Notes under the pieces: generated by a model
What the model saw: the letters and a program-made list of their open reading frames with translations, nothing else
Database searches by the model: none
What the model was told of the DNA's origin: nothing
Position numbers and translations under genes: made by a program
Shown: positions 4,132 through 20,120 of the stretch, piece by piece
Position numbering within the stretch: position 1 is the stretch's first letter
How the letters are laid out: every line of letters begins with the position of its first letter
Source of the DNA: Alphaproteobacteria bacterium
GTDB taxonomy: Bacteria; Pseudomonadota; Alphaproteobacteria; GCA-2731375
Length of the DNA stretch: 36,556 bases
NCBI GenBank assembly: GCA_021776235.1
Contig: JAJFGG010000135.1
Coordinates: 1 to 36,556 of the forward strand
Reading direction: 5' to 3'

Positions 4132-6447
4132 ATGAGTCAAAGCGCGATGAACAAGTTGCCGGCAAATGCGCCGAATCCCCAGAAAATCACGGTTGCGCTT
4201 ACCGACCGTTGTAATTTGAAATGCTTTATTTGCACCCGCGAGGAGTTTGAGGGGCAACTTGGCAGCAAAGGCAACAATCTGGCATTGGAAAATCTTTACG
4301 GCATGGAATCGTCCCTGCGCGATGCCCATATCATCCAATTAACCGGCTTTGGAGAGACATTTCTGCATCCACAGTTAGGCGAAGCGCTGGATTACATCTA
4401 TTCCATAAACCCGCGCGACGATTTGATTGAGTTTGTATCGAACGGCACCCTGCTGACGCGCGCGTGGGGTGAAAAACTCGATAAACGCCTGAACAATTTG
4501 GCAATATCCCTCAATGCCGCGCTTCCCGATACCTACAAACGGGACATGTACCCCTATCTGTTCCGCTATACCCGCGACAGCGCGCCCAAGGCCTACCGCG
4601 GCAAGCAGTTCGCCGAGGACAATGAGCGCGAACGCCCCTGTCAATTCGAACGTACAGTGGGCAAGATTGCCGACTTCATGTCGGGTCTGGGGGCGCAATC
4701 CGCCCGGCGCGTTGCCCTTCACTATGTTGTGCATCGCGATAATATTGACGAAATGCCGGATTTCGTGCGGCTGGCAAAAAATCTCGGCATAAGCCTGATC
4801 AACTTCACCCACTACATGGTGAACCGGGTCGAAAATATCGAATTCAGCGTCTATTTCCAGAAGCAGCGCTATAACGCGGCCGTGGATGGGGCGGTTGCAT
4901 TGGGTGAGGAATTGGGCGTCACCGTCAACGCGCGCCAGTTTTTCAAGGAAGAGATCAAATCGTTTGACGCCGAGCGCGACTGCCGTTGGCCGATGGAACA
5001 AGCCATAGTGTTCACGCCCGGCCAGACCGTGCCCTGTTGCCATATTGGCGACGTCGACATGGGCAATGCCTTCAGCAAGGGATTTGATGACGTATGGAAC
5101 GGCAAGCCCTACCAAAAGCTGCGCCGCGAACGCTGGATGAATACCTGCCAGAACTGCACCATGTTCCAGACTTTTGATGACTGGAAAGCGCATTTTCATC
5201 CCCTGGTGAAGGAAAGCCCGCGCTTTGAGGCACTATCGGAACATTTCGAGGAGTCGGCGCCGAACCAACCGCCCCGGGTTTTGGTGTTGGGTGCTGGTCG
5301 CGATGGTACCCGCTCGCTTGGCCGGTTGGTTGCCGATCTGCACGTTGCCAATGGCGAACAGGCCACGCTGCACCATGAAACCAACAGTTTTCGCACCTTT
5401 GCCGGCGCGGCCCAGTATCACAAGAACAGCGATGACGAGTGGATGCGCACTATCTGCGACACCATGAATGACGAAGTCGTCTCGGGCAATATTTTTGCCT
5501 TTGCCTTGCCGGTGCTGCACAGCGCTTTCGGTGATGATCTGCGCGTGATCCACGTGAAGCGCGATCGCGGCGCCTGCGTTACTTCCATGCGGCACCAGGC
5601 GCTCTCCGACCCCTTGGCCTGGGACGGATATGTCGGGCCGGTACGAAGCGATACGACGGCGGGTGATGCCCTTTACGATCCGGCGCCGCCAACTGCGGTC
5701 CTGCTGGGAGAAATGGCGCCAGATGATTGGAACGGCCTTTCCCTCGACGAACGGCTGGGTTGGTTTTATGACACCGCGCACCGCCTGGTCGCTGAAAATC
5801 TGCATTTATTTCCGCACAACATGCAGGTTTCGACCGAGGAACTTGACGATCCCGCCGCTGTCCGGCGCATCGCGCAATTCATCAACCCGGCCTGGCGGCA
5901 GGCTTGTCCCCCAGTCCATCTGAACCTCGGTCTGCAGGGCGACGAGACAAAGATGGATCAGGATCAGCATCATGCGGCCCAGCAGGCTCTGGCCGACTTT
6001 GACCTGCATCAGATGGACGCATCGGATACCTATCCGGTGATCTATTTTCTGCAACGCATGATCGCCGAACATAATTCTGCGGAAAAGAGTGATGCGATGG
6101 CCGATCTGGAAAACCTTCGCGGCGAGATCAAGGTTCTGCTGGATCGGGCCGAGGGACGTTCAGCGGCCACGGCCGGGTCCGGTACTGGCCCTAAGTCAGC
6201 GAACCTTCACCTGGTGAGTGACAGTAGCTTGTCACCGGCCCAGGCTACGCGGGTGGATGATTTTTTTGCCGATTTCGAACCGGGCAAACTGGAGGGCTCC
6301 AGTGCCTATCCGGTGATCTATTTTCTACAGCGCCTCATGGCGTTGCGTCAGGTGACAGGGGAAGGCGATAGAGATCTTGCCGCCACCTATCGTTTCATGG
6401 GCGATCAAGTCGACACCCTGATTCAAAAGGCAACCGCGTCCGGATAG
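4132..6447 (+). CDS. Radical SAM/SPASM-like and sulfotransferase fusion protein
   Basis: A protein of about 771 residues that joins two enzyme types. Residues ~15-360 are a radical SAM domain with the cluster motif Cys27-x3-Cys31-x2-Cys34, and a SPASM-like cysteine set (Cys284, Cys302-Cys303, Cys339, Cys342) around VWNGKPYQKLRRERW. Residues ~380-620 resemble a sulfotransferase: GAGRDGTRS (387-395) looks like the 5'-phosphosulfate loop. HVKRDRGACVTS gives Arg477 and Ser485, the 8-residue spacing of the 3'-phosphate-binding pair. The last ~150 residues hold two copies of YPVIYFLQR (634-642 and 726-734). Start is uncertain: GTG 4111, ATG 4132 and ATG 4147 are all in frame and none has a clear ribosome site; 4132 is chosen. 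The substrate is unknown. The methyltransferase-like gene 69 bp downstream is a likely partner. Confidence 0.85.
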   Translation: MSQSAMNKLPANAPNPQKITVALTDRCNLKCFICTREEFEGQLGSKGNNLALENLYGMESSLRDAHIIQLTGFGETFLHPQLGEALDYIYSINPRDDLIEFVSNGTLLTRAWGEKLDKRLNNLAISLNAALPDTYKRDMYPYLFRYTRDSAPKAYRGKQFAEDNERERPCQFERTVGKIADFMSGLGAQSARRVALHYVVHRDNIDEMPDFVRLAKNLGISLINFTHYMVNRVENIEFSVYFQKQRYNAAVDGAVALGEELGVTVNARQFFKEEIKSFDAERDCRWPMEQAIVFTPGQTVPCCHIGDVDMGNAFSKGFDDVWNGKPYQKLRRERWMNTCQNCTMFQTFDDWKAHFHPLVKESPRFEALSEHFEESAPNQPPRVLVLGAGRDGTRSLGRLVADLHVANGEQATLHHETNSFRTFAGAAQYHKNSDDEWMRTICDTMNDEVVSGNIFAFALPVLHSAFGDDLRVIHVKRDRGACVTSMRHQALSDPLAWDGYVGPVRSDTTAGDALYDPAPPTAVLLGEMAPDDWNGLSLDERLGWFYDTAHRLVAENLHLFPHNMQVSTEELDDPAAVRRIAQFINPAWRQACPPVHLNLGLQGDETKMDQDQHHAAQQALADFDLHQMDASDTYPVIYFLQRMIAEHNSAEKSDAMADLENLRGEIKVLLDRAEGRSAATAGSGTGPKSANLHLVSDSSLSPAQATRVDDFFADFEPGKLEGSSAYPVIYFLQRLMALRQVTGEGDRDLAATYRFMGDQVDTLIQKATASG

Positions 6448-6516
6448 ACCGGGCTTTGCCGGCACGCACATACGCAATGAGATTATGCACTGAATTTGAA
6501 TGGAAGCTTGGACATA

Positions 6517-7254
6517 ATGGGTACTTCAATTAACGATGTCTATTTCGCACGTTCGCTGGCGGAACAGGGCCTAATTCCGAAAGACGCGTTTCTAATTGAT
6601 CTTGGCGCGCAGGAGTTCAACAACGGCATTGATATCTTCAAGCTGCATGACGTGATGGCTGAATTTCTTCCCGCGGGCGATTTCAAAAACCTTCGGATCA
6701 GCGACTTCACCCAGTTACGGTTCAGCGGTCCCATATTCGATTTATTGGGGTTTAAATACTTGGCGTTGGATGTTTATGATTCGGAAAACAGTATTGTCTT
6801 CGATCTGAATCACGATCCGGTACCCGAGAATTTGAAGGGTGCGGGACATCTCATTCAAAATTTTGGCACGACCGAACATGTCTTCAACCAGGCCAACTGT
6901 TTCCGTGTCATCCACGATCTGACCAGTCCCGATGGCGGCATCATGTGGCACGCGCTGCCGATGTCTGATTTCTACTATCACGGGTTCTACAAATATGACG
7001 TAAAGTTCTTCGAGCGCCTGCTGATCGCCAACAATTATGAGCTGGTGTATCAGAAATATAGCCAGTCTCCGGGCGACCAGCCTATACCGCAGGTGTTATT
7101 GGACAATGGCATGCCACCGGTGGAATCCATGGATACAGGGGTCAATATTCTGCTGCGGCGCACGTCGCCGGCTCCGTTCAAGTTTCCGTTGGACTATGAT
7201 GACAGCAAGGTTGATGTCGACGAATTGCTGGAAACGGGTGCTGTTCGGGCCTAG
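6517..7254 (+). CDS. Class I SAM methyltransferase-like protein
   Basis: About 245 residues. The N-terminal part has FLIDLGAQEFNNG, which resembles the SAM-binding motif I of Rossmann methyltransferases. It is followed by LALDVYDS, FDLNHDPVP and IQNFGTTEHVFNQ, a layout seen in methyltransferases that act near glycans or in natural-product pathways. SPDGGIMWHALP fits the later strand-loop. A TTG at 6496 is also in frame, but ATG 6517 has a GGA 4 bases upstream and is preferred. It lies directly downstream of the radical SAM-sulfotransferase gene in the same orientation, so the two probably form an operon. Methyl acceptor unknown; the motif I glycines are incomplete, so a non-catalytic role is possible. 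Confidence 0.65.
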   Translation: MGTSINDVYFARSLAEQGLIPKDAFLIDLGAQEFNNGIDIFKLHDVMAEFLPAGDFKNLRISDFTQLRFSGPIFDLLGFKYLALDVYDSENSIVFDLNHDPVPENLKGAGHLIQNFGTTEHVFNQANCFRVIHDLTSPDGGIMWHALPMSDFYYHGFYKYDVKFFERLLIANNYELVYQKYSQSPGDQPIPQVLLDNGMPPVESMDTGVNILLRRTSPAPFKFPLDYDDSKVDVDELLETGAVRA

Positions 7255-15655: not shown

Positions 15656-17596
15656 TTATTCCGCCTGGACTGCGGCTTTCACGGCCGTCGTCTGCTCCTG
15701 GCCGGTCAGCATTTCGGGCACCAATTGACGAATCAGCGCCAGGGTCCGGTCCGTATCCCTGGCCGTCGCGGCCGCGGCCAGTTTCTCCACCTGCGCGCTG
15801 AGCAACTCGCGGTCAATGAGGCGGGGTGCGGCAAGGTTGACGCCGGCCAACGGCGTCGGTTGAGGCGCCTCGCCATCGTGCAAAAGTTCCTCATACAACT
15901 TTTCGCCAGGCCGCAGGCCGGTGAATATGATGGCAATATCGACTCCTGGCGTCAGACCGGCCAGGCGGATCATCTGCCGGGCCAGATCCAGGATACGGAC
16001 CGGCTTGCCCATATCCAGGACGAAAATCTTGCCGCCTTCGTCCCCCGGCGGCGCCGCGGCGGTTGCCTGCAGTATCAGCTCCACCGCTTCCCTTGTGGTC
16101 ATGAAATAACGGGTGACTTCGGGGTCGGTCACCGTCAGTGGCCCGCCTCGGGCCAGCTGCCGTTGAAACAAAGGCACCACGGATCCGGTGGAGCCCAGAA
16201 CATTGCCAAAGCGCACGGTGATAAAACGGCAGTTGGAAGACGACAGGCTCAAGTCCTGGCAGATCATCTCGGCAATGCGTTTGGAGGCGCCCATGACGGA
16301 GGTGGGATTAACCGCCTTGTCAGTGGATATCTGAACCATGACCCGGACGTCCGCCGCCTGACAGGCCCGGGCCACATTTGCCGTACCCATGACGTTGGTC
16401 AGCACACCTTCGTTGGGATTCTCTTCCACCATGGGGACATGCTTGAAGGCGGCGGCGTGGAAGACCAGTTCTGGTTGTTCGCGGGCGAACACCACGGCCA
16501 GGCGTTTGGCGTCCCGTACATCGCCCAGGATCGCGCTGCGGGGCAGTTCGGGCCAGCTTTCGGCGAATTCCAGATCGATCCGGTACAAGGCATGCTCGCC
16601 GTTATCCAGCAATGTGACATGCGCCGGGGCATGGGCGGCGATCTGGCGCGCCAGTTCCGCGCCGATTGTACCGCCCGCACCGGTAATCAGAACGCGCCGG
16701 CCGGAAATCAAGGCTTGCATGGCGGCCCGGTCCAGAACCTGTTGCGGCCGGCCCAACAGATCCTCGACCTGTACGGGCTGAACTTCCAATTTCGCCTCTC
16801 CATTTCCGCCACTTTGAAAATCGGTCAACCGGGGCATGCGGGAGAGGCTAAGACCCAGGCTTTCGGCCTGCTCCAGCAAGCGGCCGATGCTGGCGCCATC
16901 CAGTTTCGGCCAGGTGATGATCAGGCGTTGCGGCTTGCGGCCCTTGCGTTCCAGACCGTTCACCACCGCTTCGATCTCATCCAGGCCGCCCAGTACGGTG
17001 ACGCCGCGAATATCACGGCCGATGCGGCTGCGCTTGTGATCGACAACGCCGACCACGCGATAGCTGGCCAGGCGGTCCCGGCTCATGCCGCGGATGAAGG
17101 TCTCGGCCTCGTCGCCCGCGCCGATCAGCAGCACCGGCACCAAACCATCGTCTGTTCGTTCGAACACCGCGCGCAAATCACCATCTTTTGAAAAGCGGTA
17201 CAGCAGCCGCGAGGCCATCAGAAAAATCACCAGCAAGGGCCAGTTCAGGAGCATCGCGCTGCGCGGGAAATGCTCCAGGCGGTCCAGCACGAACATCACC
17301 GGCAGATAAATCAGGATTGCCAGGGTTACCGCCTTGACGATGGCGATCAGGTCGGAGAGCGAAGCGTAATGCCAAATCCCGCGGTACAATCCCATACGCC
17401 AGAAGACCAGGGCGCAAACAACCGTGAAAATCGCCGTACCATGCCAAAGAAAGAAGATGTCCTGCGGCTTGCCATAGGTCTGATAACGGATCCAGACCGC
17501 CAGCTCGAACGACAGCGCCGCCATGCAGACATCATGCAGGGCGACGGTTGCTATACGCCCGTTGATCCTCCCGGTGATGCGCCGAAACCAGCTCAC
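15656..17596 (-). CDS. Membrane-bound nucleotide-sugar 4,6-dehydratase, WbpM/CapD/FlaA1-like
   Basis: A 646-residue surface-polysaccharide enzyme. Residues 1-130 carry four membrane helices, and ~150-260 form a Rossmann-like domain (VLLIGAGDEAETFIRGM). Residues ~298-610 are the SDR-type catalytic domain with TGAGGTIG (305-312) binding NAD. The active site has Met435 and Lys439 in PTSVMGASK after STDKA, the Met-for-Tyr form typical of this UDP-GlcNAc C4/C6-dehydratase branch. FGNVLGSTGSVVPLF and TRYFMTTREAVELI are further family motifs. The start is GTG at 17596, 2 bases after the stop of the glycosyltransferase gene upstream. The two make a WbpL-WbpM-like pair that would form and transfer the first sugar of an O-antigen or capsule unit. 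Confidence 0.93.
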   Translation of the reverse strand: MSWFRRITGRINGRIATVALHDVCMAALSFELAVWIRYQTYGKPQDIFFLWHGTAIFTVVCALVFWRMGLYRGIWHYASLSDLIAIVKAVTLAILIYLPVMFVLDRLEHFPRSAMLLNWPLLVIFLMASRLLYRFSKDGDLRAVFERTDDGLVPVLLIGAGDEAETFIRGMSRDRLASYRVVGVVDHKRSRIGRDIRGVTVLGGLDEIEAVVNGLERKGRKPQRLIITWPKLDGASIGRLLEQAESLGLSLSRMPRLTDFQSGGNGEAKLEVQPVQVEDLLGRPQQVLDRAAMQALISGRRVLITGAGGTIGAELARQIAAHAPAHVTLLDNGEHALYRIDLEFAESWPELPRSAILGDVRDAKRLAVVFAREQPELVFHAAAFKHVPMVEENPNEGVLTNVMGTANVARACQAADVRVMVQISTDKAVNPTSVMGASKRIAEMICQDLSLSSSNCRFITVRFGNVLGSTGSVVPLFQRQLARGGPLTVTDPEVTRYFMTTREAVELILQATAAAPPGDEGGKIFVLDMGKPVRILDLARQMIRLAGLTPGVDIAIIFTGLRPGEKLYEELLHDGEAPQPTPLAGVNLAAPRLIDRELLSAQVEKLAAAATARDTDRTLALIRQLVPEMLTGQEQTTAVKAAVQAE

Positions 17597-17598
17597 GG

Positions 17599-18618
17599 TC
17601 AGTCTGCCCCATCCCTAATCTTCATTCTGGCGAAATAGTATAACAGAAGCGCCACCGCGATACCGCCCAGGGTAAGCGCCGCCCAGCCGCCGCTGCCCAA
17701 GGCGGCCCACAACGCGGCCGCCACAAGCGCCCCGTTGCAGGCCAGGATCAGCAGCGCAACATGGCCATGATCGCCGCTACGGCGGACGGCATACTGATAG
17801 AAATGCGACCGGTGGGCCCGCCAGAAAGGTTCGCCCCGCAGCACCCGGCGCAACAGCGTCCAGGTCGCATCGCACAGATAATACAGCGCCAATAGCAGCG
17901 CCGGGATCCATTGCCCTGCCGCCGCCAGGGACAGCAGCAGCCAGCCCGATAAATACCCCAGGCCGACGCTGCCGACATCGCCGAGGAATATTTTCGCCGG
18001 CCGCCAGTTCCAGAAGCCGAAGCCGACGGCGGCGCCGGCCAGTACGGCGGCGGGCGCCGCCAGGTGGACCGCGATGCCGCTGGCCTGGACAATCAGAAAA
18101 ATGCCGATACCGATGCTACTCGTCTCCACCACTGTAATGCCGTCGATGCCGTCCATGAAATTGAACAGATTGACGAACCACAGCCATAAGAATCCGGCTG
18201 CCAGGCGGTCCGCCACGGGCGGCAGCAGGCCCTGAAACACCGGGCTGTCGGGCAAAGCAAGGCAACCCAACGCCACCGTAAGGGTTTGTAGAAGCAGCCT
18301 TTGCAGGGCCGGCAGGCCGCGCAGATCGTCCAGAAAGGAATATCCGGCCAGCGCTGCGGCCAGCAGCGCAACGATGATCATATTGGACGGTTCACTGGCC
18401 GTCGTGACGCCACGCCAGGCCAGTAGGCACCAGGCCGCAACGATCACCGCCATTACGGCAATGCCGCCGCCCCGGGGCACCGCCCGGTCGTGGCTGGAGC
18501 GTTCATTGGGGTGATCGAGGATGGCGCGGGCGGTCAACAGACGCAGCAGCGCGCCCGTGGCCAGCACGGTGACGATACAGGCGGCGGCGGCCACGGCGAT
18601 AGCAAGGCTCCAGGACAT
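17599..18618 (-). CDS. Undecaprenyl-phosphate sugar-1-phosphate transferase, WecA/WbpL-like (GT4 family)
   Basis: A 339-residue polytopic enzyme of the MraY/WecA family, which transfers a HexNAc-1-phosphate from a UDP-sugar to undecaprenyl phosphate and so starts a surface glycan. Motifs in order: HPNERSSHDRAVPRGGG (36-52), LDDLRGLP with Asp97-Asp98 for Mg2+, NLFNFMDGIDG (150-160), and LGDVGSVGLGYL near residue 213. About ten hydrophobic segments are visible. The gene is followed within 2 bases by the dehydratase gene, so the two are translated from one message. The 233-bp gap upstream separates it from the divergent UDP-sugar dehydrogenase gene and probably holds both promoters. Exact sugar specificity is not readable. 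Confidence 0.92.
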   Translation of the reverse strand: MSWSLAIAVAAAACIVTVLATGALLRLLTARAILDHPNERSSHDRAVPRGGGIAVMAVIVAAWCLLAWRGVTTASEPSNMIIVALLAAALAGYSFLDDLRGLPALQRLLLQTLTVALGCLALPDSPVFQGLLPPVADRLAAGFLWLWFVNLFNFMDGIDGITVVETSSIGIGIFLIVQASGIAVHLAAPAAVLAGAAVGFGFWNWRPAKIFLGDVGSVGLGYLSGWLLLSLAAAGQWIPALLLALYYLCDATWTLLRRVLRGEPFWRAHRSHFYQYAVRRSGDHGHVALLILACNGALVAAALWAALGSGGWAALTLGGIAVALLLYYFARMKIRDGAD

Positions 18619-18851
18619 GGCTGCTTATAACCTCGTTTGCCGTCCCCGGACAGGGGGCCGCGCCGCCCCGGCGCGGAAGGGCATCTGGGATCGGGCCTGA
18701 TTGCGGTCCTTGTCAGAATGTGGTGATAATGCTACTCCCCGCCCGCAAATCCCGGCGGCCTCCGGTATCAGGCCGAAGGGATATTTCTTAATGGTTCTGG
18801 CGCAATGAAAACCTCTATTCCACACACCGAAACTGAATTCTGATCTCCGTC

Positions 18852-20120
18852 ATGACCTCTTCCTCTCCCATCGCGGTCGTTGGCCTGGGCTATGTCGGTC
18901 TACCCCTTGCGGTTGCCCTGGCCAGGCATTTTCCGACCATTGGCTACGATGTCGACCCCTCCCGTATCGCGGAATTGCGGGAGGGCCATGACCGGACCGG
19001 CGAGATCGCCGCCAATGCTATGTCCGACAGCGCCTTGACGGTGACCGACGATCCTCAGGCCATCGCGGCGGCGGAAATCTATATCGTTACCGTGCCGACG
19101 CCGGTGGATGCCGGGAACCAGCCCGACTTGCGTATCGTAAAGGCTGCCTGCGCCAGTATCGGTAAAATGCTGGTGGTGGGTGACATCGTGGTCTTTGAAA
19201 GCACGGTCTATCCCGGTGTCACGGAAGATATTTGCGGTCCTGCGCTGGCCGCCGCGTCGGGCCTGGTTTGTGGCCGTGATTTTTTCCTTGGCTATTCGCC
19301 GGAACGGATCAATCCGGGTGACCGGGAGCACACCGTCGACAAGATCACCAAGGTGGTTGCGGCGCAAACGCCGGCGGTGCTGCGACGGCTGGCCGATCTG
19401 TATGGCCAGGTAACCTCCGGCGGGGTCTATCGGGCGCAGAATATCAAGACGGCGGAAGCCGCCAAGGTGATCGAGAACGCCCAGCGCGACATCAACATAG
19501 CCTTCGTCAACGAGGTTGCGGCGATCTGTCAGAAATTGTCCCTCTCCGCCCATGACGTGCTGGAGGCGGCGGGCACGAAGTGGAACTTCCTCCCCTTCAC
19601 ACCGGGCCTGGTGGGTGGCCATTGTATCGGCGTCGATCCCTTCTATCTCGCCTATCAGGCGCAGCAACTGGGCCACGATCCCCAAATCATTCTGGCCGGC
19701 CGGCGCCTGAACGATGCCATGGGCGAATTCATCGCCGGCTGCATTGACGAGCACATGGCCGGGCCGGGCCGGGTCTTGATGCTGGGCCTGACCTTCAAGG
19801 AAAACGTGCCGGATTTGCGCAATACCAAGGTGGTGGATGTCATCGCGGGCCTGCGCAACCGGGGCCATACGGTGTTGGTGCATGACCCGGTGGCGGACGG
19901 CGAAGAGGCGGAACGCCTATACGGGTTTGCCCTGCATCCGTCCCTGGACAGCCACGGCGGCTTTGACGCCGTCGTCGGCGCGGTGCGCCATGACGACTAT
20001 CTGGCCCTGAACGCCGCCGAGTTGGCCCGCCTGGTGCGTGAAGGCGGCCTGATCGCCGACATCAAGGGCCTCTGGCGCCAGACCGACCGGCCAAAAGACA
20101 GGCACTATTGGCAGCTGTAG
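18852..20120 (+). CDS. UDP-N-acetylhexosamine 6-dehydrogenase, TviB/WbpA-like
   Basis: A 422-residue nucleotide-sugar dehydrogenase that oxidises C6 of a UDP-HexNAc to a uronic acid in two NAD+-dependent steps. It has the N-terminal NAD fold GLGYVG (11-16), then TPVDAGNQPDL, ESTVYPGVTED and GYSPERINPGD, all typical of the TviB/WbpA/WbpO branch. The catalytic Cys258 is in GGHCIGVDPFYL. LTFKENVPDLRNTKV marks the C-terminal UDP-binding domain. It is divergent from the dehydratase/transferase pair, which suggests all three serve one surface glycan containing a HexNAc-uronic acid. Precise sugar configuration is inference. Confidence 0.93.
   Translation: MTSSSPIAVVGLGYVGLPLAVALARHFPTIGYDVDPSRIAELREGHDRTGEIAANAMSDSALTVTDDPQAIAAAEIYIVTVPTPVDAGNQPDLRIVKAACASIGKMLVVGDIVVFESTVYPGVTEDICGPALAAASGLVCGRDFFLGYSPERINPGDREHTVDKITKVVAAQTPAVLRRLADLYGQVTSGGVYRAQNIKTAEAAKVIENAQRDINIAFVNEVAAICQKLSLSAHDVLEAAGTKWNFLPFTPGLVGGHCIGVDPFYLAYQAQQLGHDPQIILAGRRLNDAMGEFIAGCIDEHMAGPGRVLMLGLTFKENVPDLRNTKVVDVIAGLRNRGHTVLVHDPVADGEEAERLYGFALHPSLDSHGGFDAVVGAVRHDDYLALNAAELARLVREGGLIADIKGLWRQTDRPKDRHYWQL

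Follow-up and report, generated by a model that had tools for sequence, protein, structure and literature searches.

We observed that a single protein, encoded in a window of 36,556 nt from an alphaproteobacterial genome (the whole stretch of DNA that was analyzed), joins radical SAM and SPASM domains to a sulfotransferase-like domain, an architecture that is well supported. The fusion is confirmed as real, beyond chance or a frame artefact, since seven full-length fused copies were found and dN/dS lies between 0.06 and 0.25 in every part of the protein. We propose, with a rough probability of 0.45, that this protein is a bifunctional glycan-tailoring enzyme, most likely decorating the flagellum or the cell surface. 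We infer both activities, a shared substrate, and the identity and destination of the glycan. Both domains would be active and would perform two steps on one substrate; among the peptides, lipids and glycans evoked as substrates by the earlier note, a glycan is favored by the gene context.

The continuous frame that had been described at 4132-6447 contains no internal stop and spans 771 amino acids. All analyses were numbered from position 4132, as residue 1 of 771. The start is, however, probably the ATG at 4147 (residue 6) rather than 4132: on alignment, the frames of G006 and G004, two genomes of the same genus, have their earliest start codon at this position, and the G006 frame presents a stop just upstream of it. 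For the copy of a third relative, G010, the start was set by hand at the same ATG position in the alignment. From the N- to the C-terminus, the protein presents radical SAM, SPASM, sulfotransferase-like and C-terminal helical regions, as follows:

4147..6447, + strand: whole fusion gene (open frame; start by comparison with G006 and G004)
4183..4563, + strand: radical SAM domain, residues ~18-144 (Pfam Radical_SAM at 23-144; cysteines in 7/7 copies)
4210-4233, + strand: CxxxCxxC (C27, C31, C34), within the radical SAM domain
4981..5160, + strand: SPASM domain, residues 284-343 (Pfam SPASM; cysteines in 7/7 copies)
5275..5946, + strand: sulfotransferase-like domain, residues ~382-605 (Pfam Sulfotransfer_4 under its cut-off; Foldseek and VIA-align; conservation)
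5290-5316, + strand: loop GAGRDGTRS of the sulfotransferase-like domain
5560-5562, + strand: codon of R477, same domain
5584-5586, + strand: codon of S485, same domain
5950..6444, + strand: C-terminal helical region, residues 607-771 (sequence and alignment; profile matches restricted to the genus across 289 sampled genomes of the class)
6496..7254, + strand: companion gene, weakly methyltransferase-like (Methyltransf_23, E 0.041, under the cut-off)

The C-terminal region contains a feature absent from the earlier note: YPVIYFLQR occurs at residues 634-642 and again at 726-734, and the core of this motif is kept in all seven aligned copies. No Pfam family above its cut-off was found in this region, and a profile-profile test of it gave a probability of 0.4.

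The seven full-length copies are distributed over 6 of the 11 genomes of the genus and share 54-100% identity. Relative to the copy of the window's own genome (G000), identity is 85% in G006, 70% in G004, 69% in G010, 57% and 55% for two tandem copies in G001, and 54% in G002. G009 presented only a weak match, to a shorter radical SAM protein without the fusion. The fused copy was absent from all four genomes of other genera in our sample of the order (15 genomes, all of one family). The relatives with named records are MAGs assigned to Rhodospirillaceae, Alphaproteobacteria or Proteobacteria, and their isolate names presumably point to low-oxygen seawater.

Nine cysteines are invariant across the seven copies (C27, C31, C34, C170, C284, C302, C303, C339 and C342), as are G387, G389, R390, D391, G392, R394 and S395, together with H415 and R477. 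Substitutions affect two other positions: S485 is replaced by Ala in one G001 copy of the pair, and T393 by Val in G010. Based on 7 of the 21 possible pairs, several of which are near saturation for synonymous changes, dN/dS ranges from 0.06 to 0.16 in the radical SAM/SPASM part, from 0.14 to 0.21 in the sulfotransferase-like part and from 0.12 to 0.25 in the C-terminus. Because these ratios remain within 0.06-0.25 across the protein, all three parts are, judging from coding-sequence divergence, kept by purifying selection. The tandem copies of G001 (L016:9026-13731) are 66% identical to each other; in one of them Ser485 is replaced by Ala, and the other clusters with the copy from G002.

The CxxxCxxC cluster motif of the radical SAM superfamily was found in all seven copies. 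In Pfam, SPASM was matched above its cut-off (residues 284-343; E 5.8e-11; 42.9 bits vs 21.5); Radical_SAM fell just short of its own (residues 23-144; E 2.7e-6; 28.1 bits vs 29.5), and Sulfotransfer_4 also stayed below. The motifs themselves lie where the earlier note had placed them, with C27/C31/C34 in the first domain and, in the third, GAGRDGTRS at 387-395 and R477 and S485 eight residues apart. The SPASM-like cysteine set at 284-342 was also found (C284, C302, C303, C339 and C342). A SPASM domain is defined by a full set of seven cysteines for two auxiliary clusters. Here, C284-x12-G297-x4-C302 fits the first half of that definition and, since only C303, C339 and C342 are invariant after C302, the pattern suggests that one auxiliary cluster is more likely than two. 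The radical SAM profile also weakly matched BtrN (E 0.0014), an enzyme whose substrate is an aminocyclitol, and a search of PHROGs returned radical SAM families only. The full-length predicted model has a pLDDT of 55, and fold comparison was therefore restricted to residues 374-771, the sulfotransferase-like and C-terminal parts.

Many NCBIfam radical SAM models matched this half of the protein, with E-values down to 3e-21, and none exceeded its own cut-off. The best of them, TIGR04317 (3e-21) and TIGR04311 (8e-21), are models of metalloenzyme maturases. It is conceivable, then, that the radical SAM half matures another enzyme, either a sulfatase or a metalloenzyme, and that the second half is secondary; the radical SAM neighbor in a Campylobacter sulfotransferase cluster is annotated as a sulfatase maturase (PMC8743553). 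However, the scores are far under the cut-offs of the two models (75.9 vs 380 bits for TIGR04317 and 74.5 vs 400 bits for TIGR04311), and no match to a sulfatase or tungsten enzyme was found among the neighboring proteins scanned. We consider a maturase very improbable.

For the second half of the protein, Pfam Sulfotransfer_4 was matched at 382-491 without reaching its cut-off (E 3.6e-4; 20.9 bits vs 22.8); matches at E up to 1 were obtained for 4 of the 7 copies, the best at 2.6e-4. The residues expected of a 5'-phosphosulfate loop and an Arg/Ser pair are mostly retained: R390, G392 and R477 in 7/7 copies, and T393 and S485 in 6/7. Conservation of the loop and of the pair, on which the earlier reading had been staked, was therefore complete for R390 and R477 and nearly so for S485 and T393. 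An AlphaFold2 model of residues 374-771, built from 7 sequences (mean pLDDT 69), was best matched by sulfotransferases, in line with the structural expectation for this region. With Foldseek, rows 1-12 were all sulfotransferases (best E 6.4e-3, none ≤0.001) and the next row was a shikimate kinase. With VIA-align, rows 1-29 were sulfotransferases (Z 11.3-10.0), followed by adenylate kinases (Z 9.9). The heparan sulfate N-deacetylase/N-sulfotransferase (NDST) and tyrosylprotein sulfotransferases were among the best matches. In this model, R477 is placed after a strand and S485 inside the helix that comes next, and known sulfotransferases present the same arrangement. The loop also lacks the Walker A lysine, Thr or Val occupying that position; the absence of this lysine favors a sulfotransferase over a kinase.

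The order also contains free-standing Sulfotransfer_4 proteins (L206-L217), which the domain resembles in its Arg/Ser pair at eight residues, the loop of these proteins being GAGxGRTGTLS. They differ from the fusion in being unfused and in reaching the full family score, and the profile-profile link to them is weak: using 9 of the 12 free-standing proteins found in the order, hhalign gave a probability of 1.7 over 38 columns around R-x7-S. Because the alignment was limited to these 38 columns at that probability, we label the domain at 382-605 as sulfotransferase-like, on sequence and model evidence, and do not file it in Sulfotransfer_4. That it belongs to the sulfotransferases is likely but not certain. 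When the sulfotransferase profile was compared with PDB sequences, just two inositol dehydrogenases were matched at E 1. We also observed that a free-standing gene with a full Sulfotransfer_4 domain is present in all 11 genomes of the genus and in one other genome of the order.

Alternatively, the sulfotransferase-like domain could be a degenerate or differently used P-loop fold, serving in binding, scaffolding or another transfer, so that the protein would in effect be a radical SAM/SPASM enzyme to which an accessory domain is attached. The Pfam score under the cut-off, the hhalign probability of 1.7, the pLDDT of 69, the P-loop kinases only ~1.4 Z below the best sulfotransferase in VIA-align, and the changes of Ser485 to Ala in one G001 copy and of Thr393 to Val in G010 all point in that direction. 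In contrast, R390 and R477 are invariant in 7/7 copies, dN/dS of this part is 0.14-0.21 over the 7 pairs, and rows 1-29 of VIA-align are all sulfotransferases. We regard a degenerate fold as rather unlikely.

The gene neighborhoods place the fusion in two types of context. In G000, G006, G001 and G002, it lies between a gene that we take to be fmt and an NAD-glutamate dehydrogenase gene (identified by Pfam). In G010, G004, G007 and G009 this site is empty and the two genes are consecutive, ~260-280 bp apart in the three genomes where the distance could be measured; this comparison excludes G005 as well as G003 and G008, in which the dehydrogenase gene is outside the locus. Since the two genes adjoin without room in these four relatives, the fusion gene between them is best read, from gene order, as an insertion at this site. 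The companion gene was found downstream of the fusion in G000, G006 and G001 only (3 of the 15 genomes of the order). In addition, G010 groups with G000 and G006 in the fmt and mnmA trees but with G004 in the tree of the fusion (support 0.993), a conflict that fits a movement of the fusion gene between lineages or sites.

The second context is formed by sugar genes. In G010, a gene with TPRs and a Glyco_transf_41 domain (TPR-GT41) directly precedes the fusion in a co-directional run of eight genes, which continues beyond the fusion with nucleotidyltransferase, DegT, epimerase, dTDP-sugar isomerase, GT2 and radical SAM genes; homologues of flgL-flgK are found ~15 kb beyond the fusion. In G004, TPR-GT41 and a dTDP-sugar isomerase gene are followed by the fusion, which ends the run, and flgL and flgK (identified by Pfam) start ~3 kb further, presumably followed by additional flagellar genes. 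A glycan-tailoring function is favored because the fusion runs with TPR-GT41 and sugar genes in these two relatives, in a cluster that reaches flgL-flgK. The conservation of catalytic-type residues in both halves and the purifying selection on all parts also support this reading. So do the sulfotransferases that best match the predicted fold, the weak match to BtrN, and the hexapeptide-transferase repeats or methyltransferase to which distant relatives of the radical SAM half are joined. Against it, 4 of the 6 genomes with the fusion, including that of the window, have the gene between fmt and the glutamate dehydrogenase gene, outside the sugar cluster; moreover, APS kinase is nearly universal, the profile-profile test is weak and the closest NCBIfam models are metalloenzyme maturases. 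In G000, TPR-GT41 is located on another contig, C58, where a stretch of sugar-type genes (some assigned by similarity to G004 and G010 genes, and part of the sugar and flagellar gene names being our assumption) leads to flgL-flgK ~22 kb on. A full-length TPR-GT41 gene is present in 7 of the 11 genomes of the genus, including all six with the fusion. This co-occurrence across a few related genomes is suggestive only, because G009 carries TPR-GT41 without the fusion, and fragments of the gene are found in G007 (74%) and G005 (61%). APS kinase was detected in all 15 genomes of the order; it only permits a sulfation reaction, because it is also present in 11 of 14 control genomes.

The same neighborhoods bear on a protein or peptide substrate, in which the radical half would edit a side chain, for instance on flagellin or on a peptide of ribosomal origin, and the second half would sulfate that side chain. 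In its favor, SPASM enzymes frequently act in peptide maturation, the best fold matches include tyrosylprotein sulfotransferases (Z 11.1), and G004 has flagellar genes close to the fusion. Yet it is sugar genes that adjoin the fusion in G004 and G010, and small frames near the fusion presented no convincing similarity beyond G006; a peptide or protein substrate is unlikely. When seven small frames were compared with five relative loci as candidate precursors, a convincing E-value was obtained only with G006, the closest relative, and these candidates were rejected.

Several other genes were observed in these regions. On contig C58 of G000, APS kinase, ATP-sulfurylase and pyruvate-kinase-like genes lie in a row (L147:1978-4936), ~29 kb from TPR-GT41; the match to APS kinase falls into two pieces, in a frame that appears broken. 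In the sugar cluster of G010, three further radical SAM genes lie close to the fusion (L015:14923-16215, L015:16403-17989 and L121:4675-5703); a B12-binding domain is present in one of them and SPASM in another. Within the window, polysaccharide genes are found at 15656-20120 (Polysacc_synt_2, Glycos_transf_4 and UDP-glucose/GDP-mannose dehydrogenase), kept apart from the fusion by housekeeping-type genes. No tRNA was found in the window.

Under the glycan-tailoring reading, the radical SAM/SPASM half would oxidize, epimerize or deoxygenate a nucleotide sugar or glycan by abstracting a hydrogen atom; the neighbors of the G010 copy hint at NDP-linked deoxy sugars. The sulfotransferase-like half would use PAPS to sulfate a hydroxyl or amine, on the same sugar or a neighboring one, and the C-terminal repeats may serve to hold the acceptor or a partner. 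A more specific version, in which this single enzyme performs both radical SAM chemistry and PAPS-dependent sulfation on the same sugar of a flagellar glycan in bacteria, is doubtful; if true, the protein would be the radical equivalent of NDST and would offer bacteria a way to sulfate their flagella. NDST (PDB 8ccy, 1nst) likewise carries a sulfotransferase and a second sugar-editing activity on one polypeptide, its sulfotransferase domain being among the top fold matches of the fusion's domain. The activities of NDST act in sequence on one sugar. Unlike the fusion, NDST is an animal enzyme whose first activity is a hydrolytic deacetylase, and the aligned part shares 9-17% sequence identity. 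Gene fusions hint at which reactions follow one another, and this one would tie a radical edit to sulfation, the release of PAP offering a simple assay handle on an uncharacterized radical enzyme. It would also suggest that sulfated flagellar or surface glycans exist in uncultured marine Alphaproteobacteria. Sulfated glycoproteins of the flagellin type were reported once, in a halophilic archaeon, and a later study did not bring confirmation (PMC6591318).

In the open-licence literature, the closest published context that we found is the glycan locus of Campylobacter jejuni HS:19, in which APS kinase, a sulfotransferase, a glycosyltransferase and a radical SAM enzyme occur together (PMC8743553). 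In contrast to the fusion, these are separate genes, and the radical SAM enzyme is read there as a sulfatase maturase (PMC8743553). FlmG of Caulobacter, a protein with TPRs and a glycosyltransferase domain that modifies flagellin in an alphaproteobacterium (PMC7591256), resembles the TPR-GT41 neighbor, and not the fusion, in domain layout. Judging from titles and the openings of abstracts, none of the matching open-licence papers appears to concern a fusion of the present type, which agrees with the statement of the earlier note that no characterized enzyme with this combination was known.

We further searched for the same domain order elsewhere, as had been suggested, and fused copies were confined to the genus in the samples searched: none was found outside it in the class, phylum and genome-contig samples. 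The class and phylum were covered by samples, and these searches could overlook a fusion whose second half has diverged strongly. The sulfotransferase-like and C-terminal profiles each matched 2 of 289 genomes of the class, both in the genus (three members of the genus being among those listed for this sample). The radical SAM profile matched 78 of 385 genomes of the class and 101 of 398 of the phylum; across these, E-values below 1e-200 occurred only in the genus, and the best match outside was at 8e-21. In the scan of genome contigs (best 80 of 89 loci), 5 of 79 loci were fused and 74 matched only within residues 1-350. Across 101 loci, the sulfotransferase-like profile matched only the fusion copies of the genus. 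The search of plasmids returned no match, and no relative of the fusion was found in viral contigs.

Nine proteins from outside the genus (L164, L165, L166, L183, L188, L189, L190, L191 and L193), picked for their long frames or high scores, were scanned with Pfam together with the unfused G009 protein (L108), and no sulfotransferase match was obtained at E 0.01; the scan left out other long frames, such as those in G393, G415, G491 and G501. Some of these distant relatives present other extra domains: hexapeptide-transferase repeats (L189 and L190), a methyltransferase (L193) and TPRs (L188). L189, L190 and L193 resemble the fusion in joining radical SAM/SPASM to a group-transfer-type domain; they are uncharacterized, are distant from it (E 1e-12 to 2e-17) and differ in the type of their extra domain and in its position at the N-terminus. 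Because of the hexapeptide-transferase and methyltransferase domains of these relatives, combining radical SAM/SPASM with a group-transfer-type domain is not unique, the sulfotransferase-like version being seen only in this genus. The fusion is thus a new combination built from known families. Finally, the profile of the radical SAM half matched nine consecutive frames, split four to five between the two strands, in the archaeon MAG ARS1414 (L024:3-9417; NZBH01000014.1), and one of these frames is a radical SAM plus SPASM protein by Pfam.
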